Origin: Pseudomonadota bacterium
GTDB lineage: Bacteria; Pseudomonadota; Gammaproteobacteria; Burkholderiales; Gallionellaceae
Direction of reading: 5' to 3'
DNA length: 64,000 bases
NCBI GenBank assembly: GCA_021787435.1
Contig: JAJYLY010000005.1
Coordinates: 124,001 to 188,000 of the forward strand
The first letter of the stretch is position 1, and every line of letters begins with the position of its first letter. Shown here piece after piece: positions 37,005 through 43,457 of this stretch. The translations under genes were made by a program, and so were the position numbers. The notes beneath the pieces were generated by a model that was not told where the DNA came from, did not search any database, and saw nothing but the letters and a program-made list of their open reading frames with translations.

Positions 37005-37778
37005 CTAAGCCCAGGCAGCCAGGAACTCATCCCAGTGCGGCAAATGAAGTTTAACTAGTTCGCTTCTTACCAGATCGCACTCTTTTCTGTAACCATCCCG
37101 ACTCAAGTGGCCGCGCATCATCTGAAAGCGCAGATACACAAGATAGGTATTCACCACATCGGTTTCGCAGTAGTTACGTATTTCACCCAGCCTTCCCTGT
37201 TGGAAGGATTCCCACACTTGGCTGCCATCCTTGCCAAGCTTGCCGGGGAAGCCCATCAATCTGGCCATGTCATCTAGAGGCGCATTGGCGCGCCCGGTGT
37301 ACATCGCAAGCAAATCCATCAGATCGAGATGGCGTAGATGATAGCGGCTGATGTAATTATTCCATTTGAAGTCGCGGTCATCCTCGCCCATCTCCCAGTA
37401 GCGCGCGCACTGCACGCTGTGTATCAGTCCGCGATAATGCAGCACTGGCAGATCGAAAGTGCCGCCATTCCAGGATACCAACTGCGGCGTATATTTGTCT
37501 ATGCCATCAAAAAAACGCTGGATCAGACTACCTTCGTTTTCATCCGTCTCACCCAATGACCATACCTTGAAATGATCATCTTCGCGCAACACGCAAGAGA
37601 TCGCCACCACACGCTGCAGATGGTGCTGAAGAAAATCACTGCCGGTTGCCTGACGACGTTGCTGGAAAGCCATTTCCGCCACTTCTGCATCCGCGACACG
37701 CTCATCTAGCCCGTGCAAAATGCGAAGTCCAGCAGTATCCGGAACCGTTTCAATATCAAAAACCAGGGTAGGGGTCAA
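37005..37778 (-). CDS. Predicted DEDD 3'-5' exonuclease (PolB-like exo2 family)
   Basis: The 257-residue protein has the three exonuclease motifs: '[10 protein letters not shown]' (Exo I, Asp and Glu), '[19 protein letters not shown]' (Exo II) and '[18 protein letters not shown]' (Exo III, with Asp and Tyr). It matches the polymerase B-like exonuclease 2 family, which has no polymerase domain. It sits upstream of rlmD. The physiological substrate is not known from sequence. Confidence 0.85.
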
Positions 37779-37823: not shown

Positions 37824-38234
37824 TTATTTCTGTATCCAACCGTTATCGCTCATCACCCACCAGCCTCGCTGCGCATGGGCTATCCAGCGCGGAGCAAAAG
37901 CATTACGTATTTCCGATTGCCATTCCGGATGCGCATTGGCATTGGCGATTTCGGCATACAGTGCATCGCGATCCAGATTCTCGGCATTCACCAGCGCATT
38001 GAGATGCTTGCGCGCGGCCAGCGGCACGGAAGCAATATCCCGCAGTACGATCGTGCCGTCCATGTTAAGCCCCACTGCACCGCTGGAATAGTAGGGTAAC
38101 AATTGCGCATGGCGGGCCTGTATACGCGCCTCGACAGCCTTCACACCCGGCGTGTTGACCTCGATGTCCGCCATCGCACATGCATTGAACGACACGACAA
38201 GTGCAAACAGCACAAGATATTTGCGCAGGTTCAT
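37824..38234 (-). CDS. ydbL: YdbL/DUF1318-like periplasmic protein
   Basis: The 136-residue product has a signal peptide (MNLRKYLVLFALVVSFNACAMA). Its mature part, 'NTPGVKAVEARIQARHAQLLPYYSSGAVGLNMDGTIVLRD', is typical of YdbL. In E. coli YdbL works with the lipoprotein YnbE and the AsmA-like protein YdbH, which together form an intermembrane lipid-transport bridge (family knowledge). Its start overlaps the ynbE stop (ATGA), giving a ynbE-ydbL unit. The assignment depends partly on this context. Confidence 0.85.
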   Translation of the reverse strand: MNLRKYLVLFALVVSFNACAMADIEVNTPGVKAVEARIQARHAQLLPYYSSGAVGLNMDGTIVLRDIASVPLAARKHLNALVNAENLDRDALYAEIANANAHPEWQSEIRNAFAPRWIAHAQRGWWVMSDNGWIQK

Positions 38235-38389
38235 TTCGACTCCTTTGCAGTAGGTTTATTAACTGGCTGCCATACCTCATCGATGATCTTGTCCGCCGCT
38301 CTAGTCGCCGATGCTTCCGGAAAGAACACATTGACCGTCTGGCATGCGCCAAGTAAAAACACCATCAAAACGATCCAAACCTTGTTCAT
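38231..38389 (-). CDS. ynbE: YnbE-like small outer-membrane lipoprotein
   Basis: This short gene encodes 52 residues beginning MNKVWIVLMVFLLGACQTV, a lipoprotein signal with lipobox LLGAC. The mature part has 'FFPEASATRAADKIIDEVW', which resembles YnbE. A strong ribosome site (GAAAGGA) precedes the ATG. It begins 18 bases after the large AsmA/cyclase gene and overlaps ydbL by four bases. YnbE polymerises in the periplasm and couples YdbH to the outer membrane in E. coli. It is easily missed because of its size. Confidence 0.85.
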   Translation of the reverse strand: MNKVWIVLMVFLLGACQTVNVFFPEASATRAADKIIDEVWQPVNKPTAKESK

Positions 38390-38407
38390 CGAAGATCCTT
38401 TCAAATG

Positions 38408-41400
38408 CTAATTCGCTACACGCAAGGAGGGGCTGTCGGTGGTGCCTGAAACCTGCAGCATAACAGGAGTCATTCCGCCACGCATCGTCAAATTGGACAA
38501 AACGCGACCGGACAATGCTTGCCCGGCAACCGTGATCGCGCCATTGACTTGGAATACACTGTCGCGGATATTGATTTTGCTGAACCGGTAACTGCCCTTG
38601 GCATAAAGCAATTCACCACTCATTTCGTCGAAATGGGTTCTTCCGCCAGGCAAATTTTCCTGACTGCGCAGGCGGGTGCTTTCCACGATATCGACACCGC
38701 TTATCATTCCTTTTTTGACGTCAAAAATGCCATTGAACAACATCGCATCAGGAAGAGCCGACAGGCTTTCCGCCTGCGCCTGAAAGTGTGCCGTACCATC
38801 CATATCACCGCTCAGCAATTTGTTGATTCTCTTCAGCGGTACGACTTTGGCGATCAATTCACCCTGCACGCGCCAGCCACTGCGCCAGTTTACACGTGCA
38901 TTTCCGGTCAGCATTCCACCCCTAACCCGGCTGTCCAGACCGGTGATGCGCAGCTCGTCACGGCCCAGTTCACCTGTGGCCTTCAAGTCATCAAATACCC
39001 AGTTCGGCAAGAACGGCAGCGCACTGTCGTGAAGCGTGATGGACAAGGCCAGTTTCTGGGCAGCCGCAGCGCTGATATCCAGCCCAAGCTTATGCCCCAA
39101 AGCATTCAAATGCGCTTGAGAAAATTTTCCCGCCGCACTGAAGTTCAGCTCGCCATCCACATCCGACAGGGACATGCCTTCAGTATCGAGCTTTCCCTGC
39201 GCCAGTGTGATGCGCATAATAGGATACTCATGACTGGCTGCCATCTGCTGCAACCAGAAAGAGACTTGCTGCAAGGCAGGCCCCTTAACTTCCACGCCAT
39301 AAAGGTCAAGGCTGGTCACAGGTTTTACTGGCCCGAACATATCCACCAAGGAAAAATTCGCCTGCACCTTGGCCACCTGAATTTGCCTTGCATCGCCGAT
39401 AGATACTTCACTCAATACCAGGCGCGGCGAAGGTAAGAAACGTCCTGACAGACGGCCTATATGCACCGGCTGTTTCAGAGTTGAACTGACTAACTGTTCA
39501 ATGTTTGGCACATAATCCTGCATGGGCAGCAGAAGAGGAACGATAAACAATGCCGAGACAAACAACAACAGCAGTCCCACGATGATTTTCCCCCATGGCA
39601 CGCGATGCTGTTTCGAGATTCGGTATGTCACACTAGGTTGGTTAGGGCGCTGATGGATCGTGCTTTCCGATCTTTCCTTGGCAAGTTTTATCGCCCGCTG
39701 TTCGGCTTCCAGCCATTTTTTTGCCTGCGCATCGGCAAGCTGCACAGCATCGGCGCCCGCATAAGGATCCGTTCCCTCTTCAAGCGCAAGGCTCACATGC
39801 TGCCCCTGACCGACAGGCTCGGTTTCGACAGCTTCTGCTTCGACAACCTCACTTGTCTCCCCTTTTCCAAGCGCCATCGTATCCATGAGCAGTTGCTCTG
39901 CAACATCAGACGGCATAAATTCCACCTGCTGGCTTTGCACCTCACGGGACACATCAGGCACATCAAAAGCCTCAAAATTAAACCCGGCTGACGCATCTGA
40001 TGCTTCATATCCTTGTATCGGGGCAACCTGGTCTGCTCCCTCTTCACCATCGACCAGCTCATACACACGATATTCGCGTCCATGCTTGTCCTGTTTTGAG
40101 CCACGATAGCGAAAAAGATCATCATACTCATTGCTCATGCTGGAGACAAAATCAAAATATGCGCGAGACACGAGGATTTGATCCAAGCCTGCAAAAGTCA
40201 TCACCCGTTGCGCGCTGTTGATGCCATCCCCCAGCATGTTGATCTGCCCGTTCATATCCTTGACCAGACTCACAGGGCCCAGGTGTATGCCAACGCGTAT
40301 CCGCAACTCGGGATAATCGAAATGTTTGTTGGCGATAAGTTTCGTGCGGAAACGTACTGCCGACTCCAACGCATCGGCGGGATGCTGCAAGAATCCAATT
40401 GCAGCCCCATCACCCGTATCCAGTGCAATTCTTTCTCCAGAATCCAGCGATGCTAGGCTGTCAGTCAGCAACTGGTTAAACTGCTGCTTCAACTCCAACT
40501 GTTTGCTATCGGGTTGTTTTGTATATCCCGCGATATCAAAAAACAACACCGCCGCTGTCGTCGTTCTTCTTTCCACGACAGGCACCCCGTTATTGCTTCC
40601 TCTGCTGTCACAACCCGACAACGCGGCCGGAACCATTCTTCTTTCTGTCGAGCTTTTGGGGCTGAACGCCGAATCGCCATTCAGCTCAGAAGTCATCTGA
40701 ATCACCGATTCATTCAGCGCTTGCAAAACGTTTTCCTCGCTGGCCTCATGCTGTGCATTAAGCTTGACAACGGAGGACAACACATCATGCGGCGCAGTTT
40801 CCTGATCAATCTTGATGCGTTCGGCTTCATGTTCAGCCTTGATACGCTCGGCTTCCTGCTCGGCTTCCTGTTCAGCCTTGATACGCTCGGCTTCCTGTTC
40901 AGCCTTGATACGCTCGGCTTCCTGTTCAGCCTTGATACGCTCGGCTTCCTGTTCAGCCTTGATACGCTCGGCTTCCTGTTCGGCTTTGATGCGTAAAGCC
41001 TCTGCTTCCCGTTTTGCCAATGCCTCCGCTTCAGCTTGCGCCTTCAGTTTGGCGACTTCTGCTTCAAGTCTAGCCTTTTCTTCCGCCACTTCGCGTGCGC
41101 GCGCTTCAGCTTCGGCTTTGGCCTGCTCAGCCTCGGCCTTGATTTTTTCTGCCTGCCGTTCCGCTTGAAGACGTGCTGCCTCAGCAGCTTCCCTGGCATG
41201 TCGTTCAGCTGCAAGACGTACTGTTTCCTCATCAGCCGCCTTTTCAGCTTTTGCGCGAAGCGCTGCCTCGCGACGCTCGGCTTTTTCGGCTTCGAGGCGG
41301 ACCCTTTCTTCAGCACGGGCCAGTGCTTGAGCCTCGGCTTGCGCCTTCAACTTGAGCACTTCGGCTGCCAGTTTGTCTTTTTCTTCCGTTATGGCACGCG

Positions 41401-42262
41401 CACGGGCTTGCGCCTCCGCTTTGACTTTTTCTGCATGCTGCTCGGCAAGGCGAGCGGCCTCAACGGCCTCCTTGGCCTGACGGTTCGCTTTGCGACGAGC
41501 GGCTTCCTCTGCAGCCGCTTTTTCGGCTTCTGCACGAAGTGCCGCCTCGCGATGCTCAAGTTTTTCAGCTTCGAGTTTGGCATGCTCTTCAGCACGAGCC
41601 TTAGCCTCTGCCTCAGCAATCGCTCTCAATTTAGCCACTTCGGCTTCCAGCCTGGCTTTCTCTTCAGCCACAACGCGCGCGCGCGCCTTAGCCTCTGCTT
41701 TGATTTTTTCGGCCTGCTGTTCAGCCATACGGGCCATTTCAACAGCCATCTTAGCCTTACGTTCTGCCTCAAGGCGTGCCGCCTCTGCTGCCGCCTTTTC
41801 AACCCTGGCAAGCTCGCGGCCACGCGCTTCCGCGGCTTCAAGTCTAGCTCTTTCTTCCGCTATGCCTGCTTTTTGCTTTAATTCTTCACGCGCTTCATCG
41901 GCAGCCTTCAGCTTGGCTGCCTCCTCTGCCAATGCCGCTTGCGTGGGCACCCTGAAAGCCGCGGTAAAATCCAGTTCTTCCACCGCATTTCCGGATTTTT
42001 TAAGCGGGGCAGGATTCACCAGCTTCGCTGAACGAACAGTGCGCGCCTTGTCCTGTATAAAACCTTCTTTCACCAGCTCAGCAAACATGTCATCCAGCGC
42101 TACGCGCAAGCTGGGTGAAGAACGTTTCTTGATTTCAGCTATCGTGGCAACCCCATCCACCATCAACAGGGCGCGTTTAATATCCTTGGACAAAAGCGCT
42201 GTCCTGCTGCGCGCCTCATCTTCACCAATACTCGTTCTGACAAAAACAATTTTTTCATCCAT
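38408..42262 (-). CDS. Coiled-coil / class III nucleotide cyclase / AsmA-like fusion protein
   Basis: The 1284-residue protein has five parts. Residues 1-75 look like a winged-helix fold ('SKDIKRALLMVDGVATIAEI'). About 100-500 is an Ala/Glu/Lys/Arg coiled coil with nine-residue EAERIKAEQ repeats at 421-497. About 574-745 is a class III cyclase, with metal Asp585 in FFDIAGYT, 'ALDTGDGAAIGF' around Asp627, 'LRIRVGIHLGPV' and Asn691/Arg695 in GINSAQRV. One membrane helix is at 901-922. Residues 925-1284 are AsmA-like ('HIGRLSGRFLPSPRLVLSEVSIG', 'SLDLYGVEVKGP'). The cyclase would be cytoplasmic and the AsmA part periplasmic. ynbE and ydbL follow. I take it as a YdbH-like AsmA protein fused to a cyclase. 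The catalytic product is unverified. Confidence 0.8.
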   Translation of the reverse strand: MDEKIVFVRTSIGEDEARSRTALLSKDIKRALLMVDGVATIAEIKKRSSPSLRVALDDMFAELVKEGFIQDKARTVRSAKLVNPAPLKKSGNAVEELDFTAAFRVPTQAALAEEAAKLKAADEAREELKQKAGIAEERARLEAAEARGRELARVEKAAAEAARLEAERKAKMAVEMARMAEQQAEKIKAEAKARARVVAEEKARLEAEVAKLRAIAEAEAKARAEEHAKLEAEKLEHREAALRAEAEKAAAEEAARRKANRQAKEAVEAARLAEQHAEKVKAEAQARARAITEEKDKLAAEVLKLKAQAEAQALARAEERVRLEAEKAERREAALRAKAEKAADEETVRLAAERHAREAAEAARLQAERQAEKIKAEAEQAKAEAEARAREVAEEKARLEAEVAKLKAQAEAEALAKREAEALRIKAEQEAERIKAEQEAERIKAEQEAERIKAEQEAERIKAEQEAEQEAERIKAEHEAERIKIDQETAPHDVLSSVVKLNAQHEASEENVLQALNESVIQMTSELNGDSAFSPKSSTERRMVPAALSGCDSRGSNNGVPVVERRTTTAAVLFFDIAGYTKQPDSKQLELKQQFNQLLTDSLASLDSGERIALDTGDGAAIGFLQHPADALESAVRFRTKLIANKHFDYPELRIRVGIHLGPVSLVKDMNGQINMLGDGINSAQRVMTFAGLDQILVSRAYFDFVSSMSNEYDDLFRYRGSKQDKHGREYRVYELVDGEEGADQVAPIQGYEASDASAGFNFEAFDVPDVSREVQSQQVEFMPSDVAEQLLMDTMALGKGETSEVVEAEAVETEPVGQGQHVSLALEEGTDPYAGADAVQLADAQAKKWLEAEQRAIKLAKERSESTIHQRPNQPSVTYRISKQHRVPWGKIIVGLLLLFVSALFIVPLLLPMQDYVPNIEQLVSSTLKQPVHIGRLSGRFLPSPRLVLSEVSIGDARQIQVAKVQANFSLVDMFGPVKPVTSLDLYGVEVKGPALQQVSFWLQQMAASHEYPIMRITLAQGKLDTEGMSLSDVDGELNFSAAGKFSQAHLNALGHKLGLDISAAAAQKLALSITLHDSALPFLPNWVFDDLKATGELGRDELRITGLDSRVRGGMLTGNARVNWRSGWRVQGELIAKVVPLKRINKLLSGDMDGTAHFQAQAESLSALPDAMLFNGIFDVKKGMISGVDIVESTRLRSQENLPGGRTHFDEMSGELLYAKGSYRFSKINIRDSVFQVNGAITVAGQALSGRVLSNLTMRGGMTPVMLQVSGTTDSPSLRVAN
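40772..41002. repeat. Tandem 27-base repeat in the cyclase/AsmA gene
   Basis: Eight nine-residue units, plus a four-residue stub, of the type EAERIKAEQ are encoded by near-identical 27-base DNA repeats. The repeated plus-strand motif contains CTTGATACGCTCGGCTTCC. Identity at DNA level is high in the central copies and falls at the ends. Copy number may vary by slippage. It lies in the coiled coil between the N-terminal domain and the cyclase. Confidence 0.9.
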
Positions 42263-42362: not shown

Positions 42363-42391
42363 TTGACAACAGAACAAACGTTCTTTATATT
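42363..42391 (+). promoter_or_regulatory. Consensus promoter with a GAAC-N4-GTTC palindrome in its spacer
   Basis: TTGACA (42363-42368) and TATATT (42386-42391) are separated by 17 bases, close to ideal sigma-70. The perfect palindrome GAACAAACGTTC (42372-42383) lies between them. A repeated half-site, GTTCGTTC, lies downstream at 42401-42408. AGGAA follows as ribosome site for the LexA-like gene. The position is ideal for autorepression. GAAC-N4-GTTC is the Gram-positive SOS box form, not the CTGT-N8-ACAG usual in beta- and gammaproteobacteria. Confidence 0.7.
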
Positions 42392-42423: not shown

Positions 42424-43005
42424 ATGACCAAAGACAGCGAGTATCTTAACAAACTTCAGGATTACTATGCCGACTGGAAAAACATCCCATCCTACGCCAA
42501 GTTGTGCGAGGTCTTCGGCATCGCTTCCAAATCGTGGGTGAAAGCCATACTGACACGTCTGGCCGATGCCGATTTCATTGATCGCACGCCGGATGGCGCA
42601 TGGATACCGACACGACAATTTTTCGCACGCCCGCTGGCCGAATCATCCGTTCAGGCCGGCATGCCAGTATCCGTGACAGCCACCCAGGGCGATTTTTTCA
42701 TCATCGACGACATGCTGATCGACACGCCATCTAGGACAACGCTCATCACGGTCAAGGGGGACTCGATGATAGATGCAGGCATACACGACGGTGATGTTGC
42801 CGTAGTGGAAAAGCGCATGACTGCGAACATAGGTGACATCGTGGTTGCAATCGTGGACGACGATTTCACGCTCAAAACACTGGATAGAGAAAATGGCGCT
42901 TTCATACTGCGCCCAGCCAATCCGGCATATCCCGTTATCCGACCGCAGGGCACACTGGAAATATTTGGTGTGCTCATAGGTCTGGTCAGAAAATACAAGA
43001 GGTAA
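42424..43005 (+). CDS. LexA-like self-cleaving repressor
   Basis: The 193-residue protein has an N-terminal winged helix that aligns with the LexA DNA-binding domain ('IPSYAKLCEVFGIASKSWVKAILTRLADADFI'). A C-terminal S24 peptidase domain follows. The cleavage site Ala78-Gly79 (VQAGMPV), catalytic Ser114 (KGDSMIDAG) and Lys151 (DFTLKTL) are all present, so RecA-stimulated autocleavage is likely. It is separated by two bases from the umuD-like gene. It is divergent from the large AsmA/cyclase gene, whose start is 161 bases away. It may be a second, locus-specific LexA like the LexA2 of imu cassettes. Confidence 0.87.
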   Translation: MTKDSEYLNKLQDYYADWKNIPSYAKLCEVFGIASKSWVKAILTRLADADFIDRTPDGAWIPTRQFFARPLAESSVQAGMPVSVTATQGDFFIIDDMLIDTPSRTTLITVKGDSMIDAGIHDGDVAVVEKRMTANIGDIVVAIVDDDFTLKTLDRENGAFILRPANPAYPVIRPQGTLEIFGVLIGLVRKYKR

Positions 43006-43007
43006 AC

Positions 43008-43457
43008 ATGCATCAACAACCATCCCGCCGGGCCCTGCTCTCGATGACCCACCCCAACAAGGAACTGTTTTTTCGCCAGCGCGCACTGCTTCGCCGCACT
43101 GTACCAGCAGGCTTTCCATCGCCTGCCGATGACTATATAGAACAGCGCATCAGCCTGGATGAACATCTGATCAAACGCCGTGAATCGACATTTTTCATGC
43201 GCGTCGCAGGGGACTCCATGCAGGGTCTTGGTATTTTTGACGGCGACCTGCTGGTGGTCGACCGCGCCTTGTCCCCAACCCCGGGTTGCGTGGTAATCGC
43301 CGTGATAGACGGAGAATTCACTGTCAAACAATTGCTCTACTCACCGAATGGCCCCATCCTGCGCGCAGCGCATCCGGACTATCCCGATACACATATCCAA
43401 CCGGAACAGGATTTCACCATCTGGGGTGTGGTCAACTGGAATGTGCACAAACACTGA
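43008..43457 (+). CDS. umuD: UmuD-like S24 peptidase
   Basis: UmuD is cleaved to UmuD' and joins UmuC as DNA polymerase V. The 149-residue product has the expected layout. The cleavage site Ala34-Gly35 lies in 'TVPAGFPSPADDYIEQRISL', with Ser70 ('AGDSMQGLGIFDGD') and Lys107 ('EFTVKQLLY'). All are intact. The partner umuC downstream is decayed, so the protein probably has no local polymerase partner. It is coupled to the LexA-like gene (two-base gap). Confidence 0.92.
   Translation: MHQQPSRRALLSMTHPNKELFFRQRALLRRTVPAGFPSPADDYIEQRISLDEHLIKRRESTFFMRVAGDSMQGLGIFDGDLLVVDRALSPTPGCVVIAVIDGEFTVKQLLYSPNGPILRAAHPDYPDTHIQPEQDFTIWGVVNWNVHKH

Follow-up and report, generated by a model that had tools for sequence, protein, structure and literature searches.

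The AsmA-like clan of E. coli includes AsmA, YhdP, TamB and YdbH, which share an N-terminal membrane anchor, a chorein-like start and a beta-groove periplasmic region, the latter with about 120 plus 425-1125 residues (PMC8593681). YdbH also gives its name to the YdbH-YnbE-YdbL system of E. coli (Kumar, Davis, Ruiz 2024, as cited in PMC12977461). Two further groups offer themselves for comparison: class III cyclases with a single membrane helix, and Burkholderiales proteins in which an N-terminal domain (ND), a long helix, a membrane helix (TM) and an AsmA part follow one another. Here, we analysed a 64,000-nucleotide stretch of DNA (the window) from an iron-oxidising bacterium of the genus Gallionella, which we use sensu GTDB, including Candidatus Ferrigenium species; this placement follows the organism names attached to related loci.

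One gene of the window encodes a protein that resembles the AsmA-like clan in its membrane anchor, chorein-like start, beta-groove periplasmic region and PF05170 match, but differs from it by a large cytoplasmic part made up of a winged-helix-like domain, a long helix and a cyclase. As in the E. coli YdbH-YnbE-YdbL system, this AsmA-clan gene is followed by two genes, one for a lipoprotein at the place of ynbE and then ydbL (DUF1318). However, the first gene is AsmA-type and carries a cyclase, the lipoprotein falls outside the Pfam YnbE model, and many other genomes of the genus keep a true ydbH before ynbE-ydbL. The protein is membrane-bound with an extracytoplasmic domain, like the single-helix class III cyclases, among them a stand-alone cyclase of the same genome (G000 C31; cyclase 45% identical). 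While the latter ends in a PEGA domain, the periplasmic domain of the fusion is AsmA/chorein-like and its cyclase lies between the long helix and the membrane helix. The Burkholderiales ND-long helix-TM-AsmA proteins match the fusion in their N-terminal domain, in the long and membrane helices and in the AsmA part, but 37 of the 39 examined lack the cyclase.

Domain architecture of the fusion protein

The features of the locus are as follows:

38408-42262, minus strand: cyclase-AsmA fusion gene, 1284 aa, ATG start, intact ORF; PF00211 and PF05170 above cut-off
42008-42262, minus strand: N-terminal domain, residues 1-85, winged-helix-like (AF2 pLDDT 85, pTM 0.71)
40763-41932, minus strand: long charged Ala/Glu/Lys/Arg-rich helical stretch, residues ~111-500, read from the translation
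40028-40582, minus strand: class III nucleotidyl cyclase domain, residues 561-745 (PF00211; catalytic Asp, Asp, Asn, Arg)
39542-39595, minus strand: membrane helix, residues 890-907 (hydrophobic in sequence, helical in the AF2 model)
38411-39541, minus strand: AsmA/chorein-like periplasmic part, residues 908-1284, ~377 aa (PF05170, beta-groove-like AF2 model, Foldseek)
38231-38389, minus strand: YnbE-position lipoprotein, 52 aa (MNKVWIVLMVFLLGACQTVNVFFP...), with lipobox; a family found across the genus shares this position ahead of ydbL
37824-38234, minus strand: ydbL (DUF1318; PF07027, 4.3e-19)
37005-37778, minus strand: PolB-type 3'-5' exonuclease gene (PF10108, 4.4e-96; synteny)
42371-42384, no strand: AGAAC-N4-GTTCT palindrome, perfect; one match in the window versus 0.03 expected
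42424-43005, plus strand: LexA-like S24 gene (PF00717, 7e-25), divergent from the fusion

The initial annotation had read the first gene as a cyclase fused to an AsmA-fold periplasmic domain, and this is borne out by Pfam, by the AF2 model and by recurrence of the fusion in Gallionella. AsmA (PF05170) matched residues 893-968 with 33.2 bits against a curated cut-off of 29.8. An AF2 model of residues 861-1284, built on an alignment of 31 relatives, reached a mean pLDDT of 83 and a pTM of 0.71; it shows a membrane helix (890-907) and, beyond it, about 24 strands with few helices in a beta-groove-like arrangement. In the PDB, Foldseek ranked the lipid-transfer domain at the N-terminus of Atg2 first for the AsmA part (prob 1.00, E 4.7e-3). 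Apolipoprotein B, TamAB, Vps13 and Atg2 appeared in VIA-align at Z 6.5-11.3, amid many beta-barrel rows. Vps13 (Z 7.0) and Atg2 (Z 6.5) both scored in the middle range, so that a similarity to their lipid-transfer domains is plausible in kind, at a middling score. Rows for porins and VDAC were set aside as general beta-sheet similarity. Structure prediction, which had been suggested as a check for an AsmA fold with a groove, thus yielded an AsmA-type, chorein-like beta groove for this segment.

With about 377 residues, the periplasmic region of the fusion is shorter than that of any E. coli AsmA-like protein (PMC8593681). Judged by this length, the AsmA part would probably not reach across the periplasm. 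The YdbH-like profile PF11739 found no match in the fusion, and by its sequence profile the periplasmic part is AsmA-type, not YdbH-type. We also rejected the idea that it is a shortened YdbH, because the genome G010 carries both a YdbH and a fusion, the AsmA part of which is 61-63% identical to that of the window.

Towards the N-terminus, the best PDB matches of the first domain were weak, among them MarR (Z 4.5) and the winged-helix parts found in GATOR1 subunits (Z 8.2), and the domain occurs in 35 of the 39 long AsmA proteins of the order. The charged helical stretch contains AERIKAEQE repeats in the translation and could form either a coiled coil or a single helix.

The cyclase domain was matched by Guanylate_cyc (PF00211) at residues 565-710 (24.2 bits, curated cut-off 21.9). 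Retention of the metal-binding Asp and the catalytic Asn and Arg had been claimed before, and the alignment confirmed every key residue in the window copy: both metal Asp (FFDIAG, TGDGAA) as well as the transition-state Asn and Arg (GDGINSAQR). All four are present in 35 of the 37 Gallionella fusion cyclases, including that of the window; the two degenerate ones are L071 (G010) and L080 (G079). Canonical purine-selecting pairs are Lys/Asp for ATP and Glu/Cys for GTP. By alignment with Ma1120, the fusion cyclase has a non-canonical Leu/Asn pair, each residue conserved in 36 of the 37 copies, and hence neither substrate nor product can be named from the sequence.

Within the window clade, dN/dS by NG86, with dS partly saturated, was 0.033-0.044 for the cyclase, 0.11-0.15 for the AsmA part, ~0.09-0.13 for YdbL, 0.14-0.43 for YnbE, 0.047-0.102 for the exonuclease and 0.070-0.100 for RlmD. 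The lowest values fall in the cyclase, making it the most constrained part of the fusion protein, and as estimated from these codon comparisons its catalytic residues are under strong purifying selection. The closest paralogue of the fusion cyclase is G000 C31 (L178:3800-5128), the stand-alone cyclase-TM-PEGA-like protein of the window's genome, which has 442 aa and is conserved in the genus.

Distribution and origin of the fusion

The ND-cyclase-AsmA order is shared by 36 other Gallionella loci (37 with the window), and an arrangement that recurs in so many genomes cannot be due to chance or misassembly. With the AsmA part as query, 66 of the 76 genomes of the genus gave a match. Among 52 named related loci, 36 encode the cyclase and 15 encode full-length homologues that lack it; a contig end truncates the remaining one. 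At the level of the order, 75 of 150 genomes matched, with a cyclase in only two (G201, G112) of the 39 long AsmA proteins; G156 and G194, from the same family as G112, also carry a fusion cyclase. Outside Gallionella the fusion therefore occurs in two other families (G201; G112, G156, G194). Matches in the class, from 276 sampled genomes, showed neither the N-terminal domain nor a cyclase in the loci read. The cyclase-less parent protein is widespread in Burkholderiales.

In a tree of 23 fusion cyclases and stand-alone cyclases, many of the latter ending in a PEGA-like domain, all 23 fusion copies formed one group apart from the stand-alone ones. Support was 0.996 for joining Gallionella with family f37, that of G112, and 0.196 for adding G201. 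This grouping suggests, as the simplest reading, one old insertion of the cyclase and several later losses, and horizontal transfer may have contributed to the distribution. Separate insertions in each lineage are disfavoured by the tree, with the weakly supported placement of G201 (0.196) as a reservation. The literature searched, the coverage of which is incomplete, contained nothing relevant on cyclase-AsmA proteins; the architecture thus has no description there.

No operon partner was conserved with the order-level relatives: no gene cluster was common to most loci. In five genomes of the order (L141, L161, L164, L170, L171), an HD-type gene lies near a cyclase-less AsmA homologue on the opposite strand; inspected by eye, its product is a possible phosphodiesterase. 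Several Gallionella have a second AsmA-family gene of ~570-670 aa directly upstream of the fusion and in the same direction (for example L044:4520-6265, L029:10974-12683 and L042:12059-14080).

Upstream of the window's fusion, the palindrome sits in the 161-bp divergent gap to the LexA-like S24 gene. In one Gallionella subgroup, palindrome and LexA-like gene are conserved together beside the fusion; among the loci examined, 18 have the gene in this place, a number that includes some duplicates. AGAAC-N4-GTTCT may serve as an operator of the LexA type with an effect on the fusion as well. Directly behind the LexA-like gene lies another S24/LexA-like or UmuD-like ORF (43008-43457), and homologous pairs exist at other loci.

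The ynbE-ydbL neighbourhood and the loss of ydbH

Downstream, a gap of 18 nt separates the fusion from the lipoprotein gene, a spacing seen in both genomes whose ynbE start was located. The ydbL gene overlaps the ynbE-position gene by ATGA and is followed by the exonuclease gene, a neighbourhood conserved in the genus. The interval originally drawn around this gene group, 38231-42262, covers the fusion and the YnbE-position gene, but ydbL falls outside it. Of the two downstream identities proposed at that time, YdbL is secured by PF07027, while YnbE stands by position, lipobox and genus family and not by the YnbE profile PF13617, which the window lipoprotein does not match; only G006 does among 41 genomes. 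G006 is also the sole genome seen in the genus with a canonical, E. coli-like ydbH-ynbE-ydbL set (L037:5345-8368; PF11739 3e-79, PF13617 5.4e-18), unlike the diverged sets of other Gallionella.

Most Gallionella with ydbL encode a YdbH of 650-720 residues, then ynbE-ydbL, then the exonuclease and rlmD genes. Over the 76 genomes, YdbL was counted in 36 and the diverged Gallionella YdbH in 25, beside the 66 with the AsmA part of the fusion. The YdbH of G009 matched PF11739 with 31.4 bits (cut-off 26.3) and is ~61% identical to the YdbH of G010, which served as search query. Directly before ynbE-ydbL, the fusion stands only in the window's genome (G000) and in G004, G047 and G073; in other Gallionella, ynbE-ydbL is either located behind a separate YdbH or stands alone, with the fusion elsewhere. 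Accordingly, ydbL was present in the flanks of three of the 52 named loci (G004, G047, G073) and absent nearby in 49. The initial annotation had suggested looking for the fusion together with ynbE/ydbL in other genomes: the fusion itself proved widespread, whereas the linked pair was confined to these three besides the window.

Searched with the YdbH protein of G010, ydbH was absent from G000, G004, G047 and G073. A YdbH hidden elsewhere in the window's genome was sought with PF11739 and the G010 protein, and none was found in an assembly that is 98.6% complete, which leaves a small chance of a copy lying in a gap. In the species tree, these four genomes form one clade (support 1.0) with G010 as sister, and G010 has a ydbH-ynbE-ydbL set and the fusion at a separate place. 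As in the window, the genes for EF-P and EarP are found close to the fusion in G010, G001, G045 and G079; in G044 they adjoin ydbH. The tree and the EF-P/EarP positions would be explained by a recent rearrangement in the ancestor of the four-species clade, in which ydbH was lost and the fusion came to occupy its site. We rejected adjacency to ynbE-ydbL as the ancestral state, since the link exists only in the four sister species. Being derived, it is weak evidence for joint function. Elsewhere in the genus, the loss of ydbH from G059, G060 and G049 is separate from this rearrangement, and these genomes retain ynbE-ydbL flanked by unrelated genes, with the fusion at another place; in G002 neither ydbH nor a fusion was detected.

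We then compared the YnbE core, defined as 26 residues from the lipobox Cys (CVTINIYFPAAAAEKAADKIIEEVWQ). In ten ydbH-bearing genomes on the tree, mean identity was 97% (minimum 92%) at tree distances of 0.17-0.58. The cores of the window clade, in contrast, are 54-69% identical to that of the sister G010 at distances of 0.22-0.36, 79% identical among themselves, and have the clade-specific form CQTV[ND]VFFP..SA. Those of the orphan lineages without ydbH diverge to a similar degree. As the core is nearly invariant with YdbH and altered without it, it is apparently held fixed by YdbH and changes after the loss of YdbH; drift or a fit to a new partner may account for its state in the window clade. 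The sharp change of YnbE wherever YdbH is missing provides evidence from natural variation that YdbH holds the YnbE core fixed.

Candidate roles of the fusion protein

We propose, with about an even chance of being right, that the fusion is an inner-membrane, envelope-sensing cyclase, in which a periplasmic groove controls a dimeric cyclase via the single membrane helix. A Burkholderiales protein composed of a winged-helix-like domain, a long helix, a membrane helix and an AsmA groove would have gained a class III cyclase just inside the membrane. The groove would bind envelope lipids or an envelope partner, and binding would be transmitted through the membrane helix to the cyclase, whose dimerisation the long charged helix may aid; the cyclic nucleotide made would be the output. 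The genes ynbE-ydbL would have come to lie beside the fusion by the rearrangement that removed ydbH, and joint function would not be required. Against sensing, the AsmA part, with the dN/dS given above, evolves faster than expected of a precise sensor. Moreover, loss of the cyclase in 15 full-length Gallionella homologues and its degeneration in two mean that the output is dispensable in some lineages, and the Leu/Asn pair makes cyclase activity and substrate uncertain.

The same losses could point to an AsmA-family envelope-assembly factor on which the cyclase is a secondary regulatory add-on, not the output of AsmA sensing, and would change the protein's own activity or local signalling. The AsmA part and the N-terminal domain are common to nearly all homologues, and the cyclase is absent from 37 of the 39 long order-level proteins as well as from the 15 Gallionella homologues. 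However, the cyclase is the most constrained part in the window clade and the fusion clade looks old, and we regard this explanation as possible but rather doubtful.

The third explanation, which we judge unlikely, is that YdbH was replaced in the window clade. The AsmA part would end in YnbE strands with YdbL as chaperone, and the resulting phospholipid bridge would be coupled to the cyclase, which would report or regulate its state. The four genomes without ydbH discussed above are the sole ones with the fusion directly before ynbE-ydbL; both of these genes are intact there, YdbL with a dN/dS of ~0.09-0.13, and YnbE gained its clade-specific core. In addition, no TamB was found in the window's genome, where YhdP (1298 aa frame) is the only full-length bridge seen; its presence means that YhdP can carry bulk phospholipid transport. 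On the other hand, G059, G060, G049 and G002 demonstrate that ynbE-ydbL can persist without the fusion as a partner, the AsmA part is neither lengthened in the clade nor visibly altered at its C-terminus, and it is not YdbH-type. Its ~377 residues, below any E. coli AsmA-like periplasmic region (PMC8593681), weaken the bridge reading further, and a bridge formed with YnbE is possible but unsupported. The initial annotation's reading as a bridge protein is therefore not supported for a bridge of the YdbH type, given the AsmA instead of YdbH match, the short periplasmic part and a ynbE-ydbL link in four Gallionella species only. That the cyclase-bearing AsmA protein took over the role of YdbH with a re-tooled YnbE and YdbL, as a lipid conduit reporting its state as cyclic nucleotide, appears distinctly unlikely.

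A catalytically silent scaffold or nucleotide sensor, as the Leu/Asn at the purine-selecting positions and the degenerate copies in G010 and G079 might suggest, is very improbable for a domain of which 35 of 37 copies retain the two metal Asp together with Asn and Arg, and which has a dN/dS of 0.03-0.04.

How bacteria sense and adjust the lipid state of their envelope is largely an open question. If the fusion is an envelope-sensing cyclase, a cyclase on an AsmA/chorein-like domain would be a direct link from envelope lipids to a second messenger.
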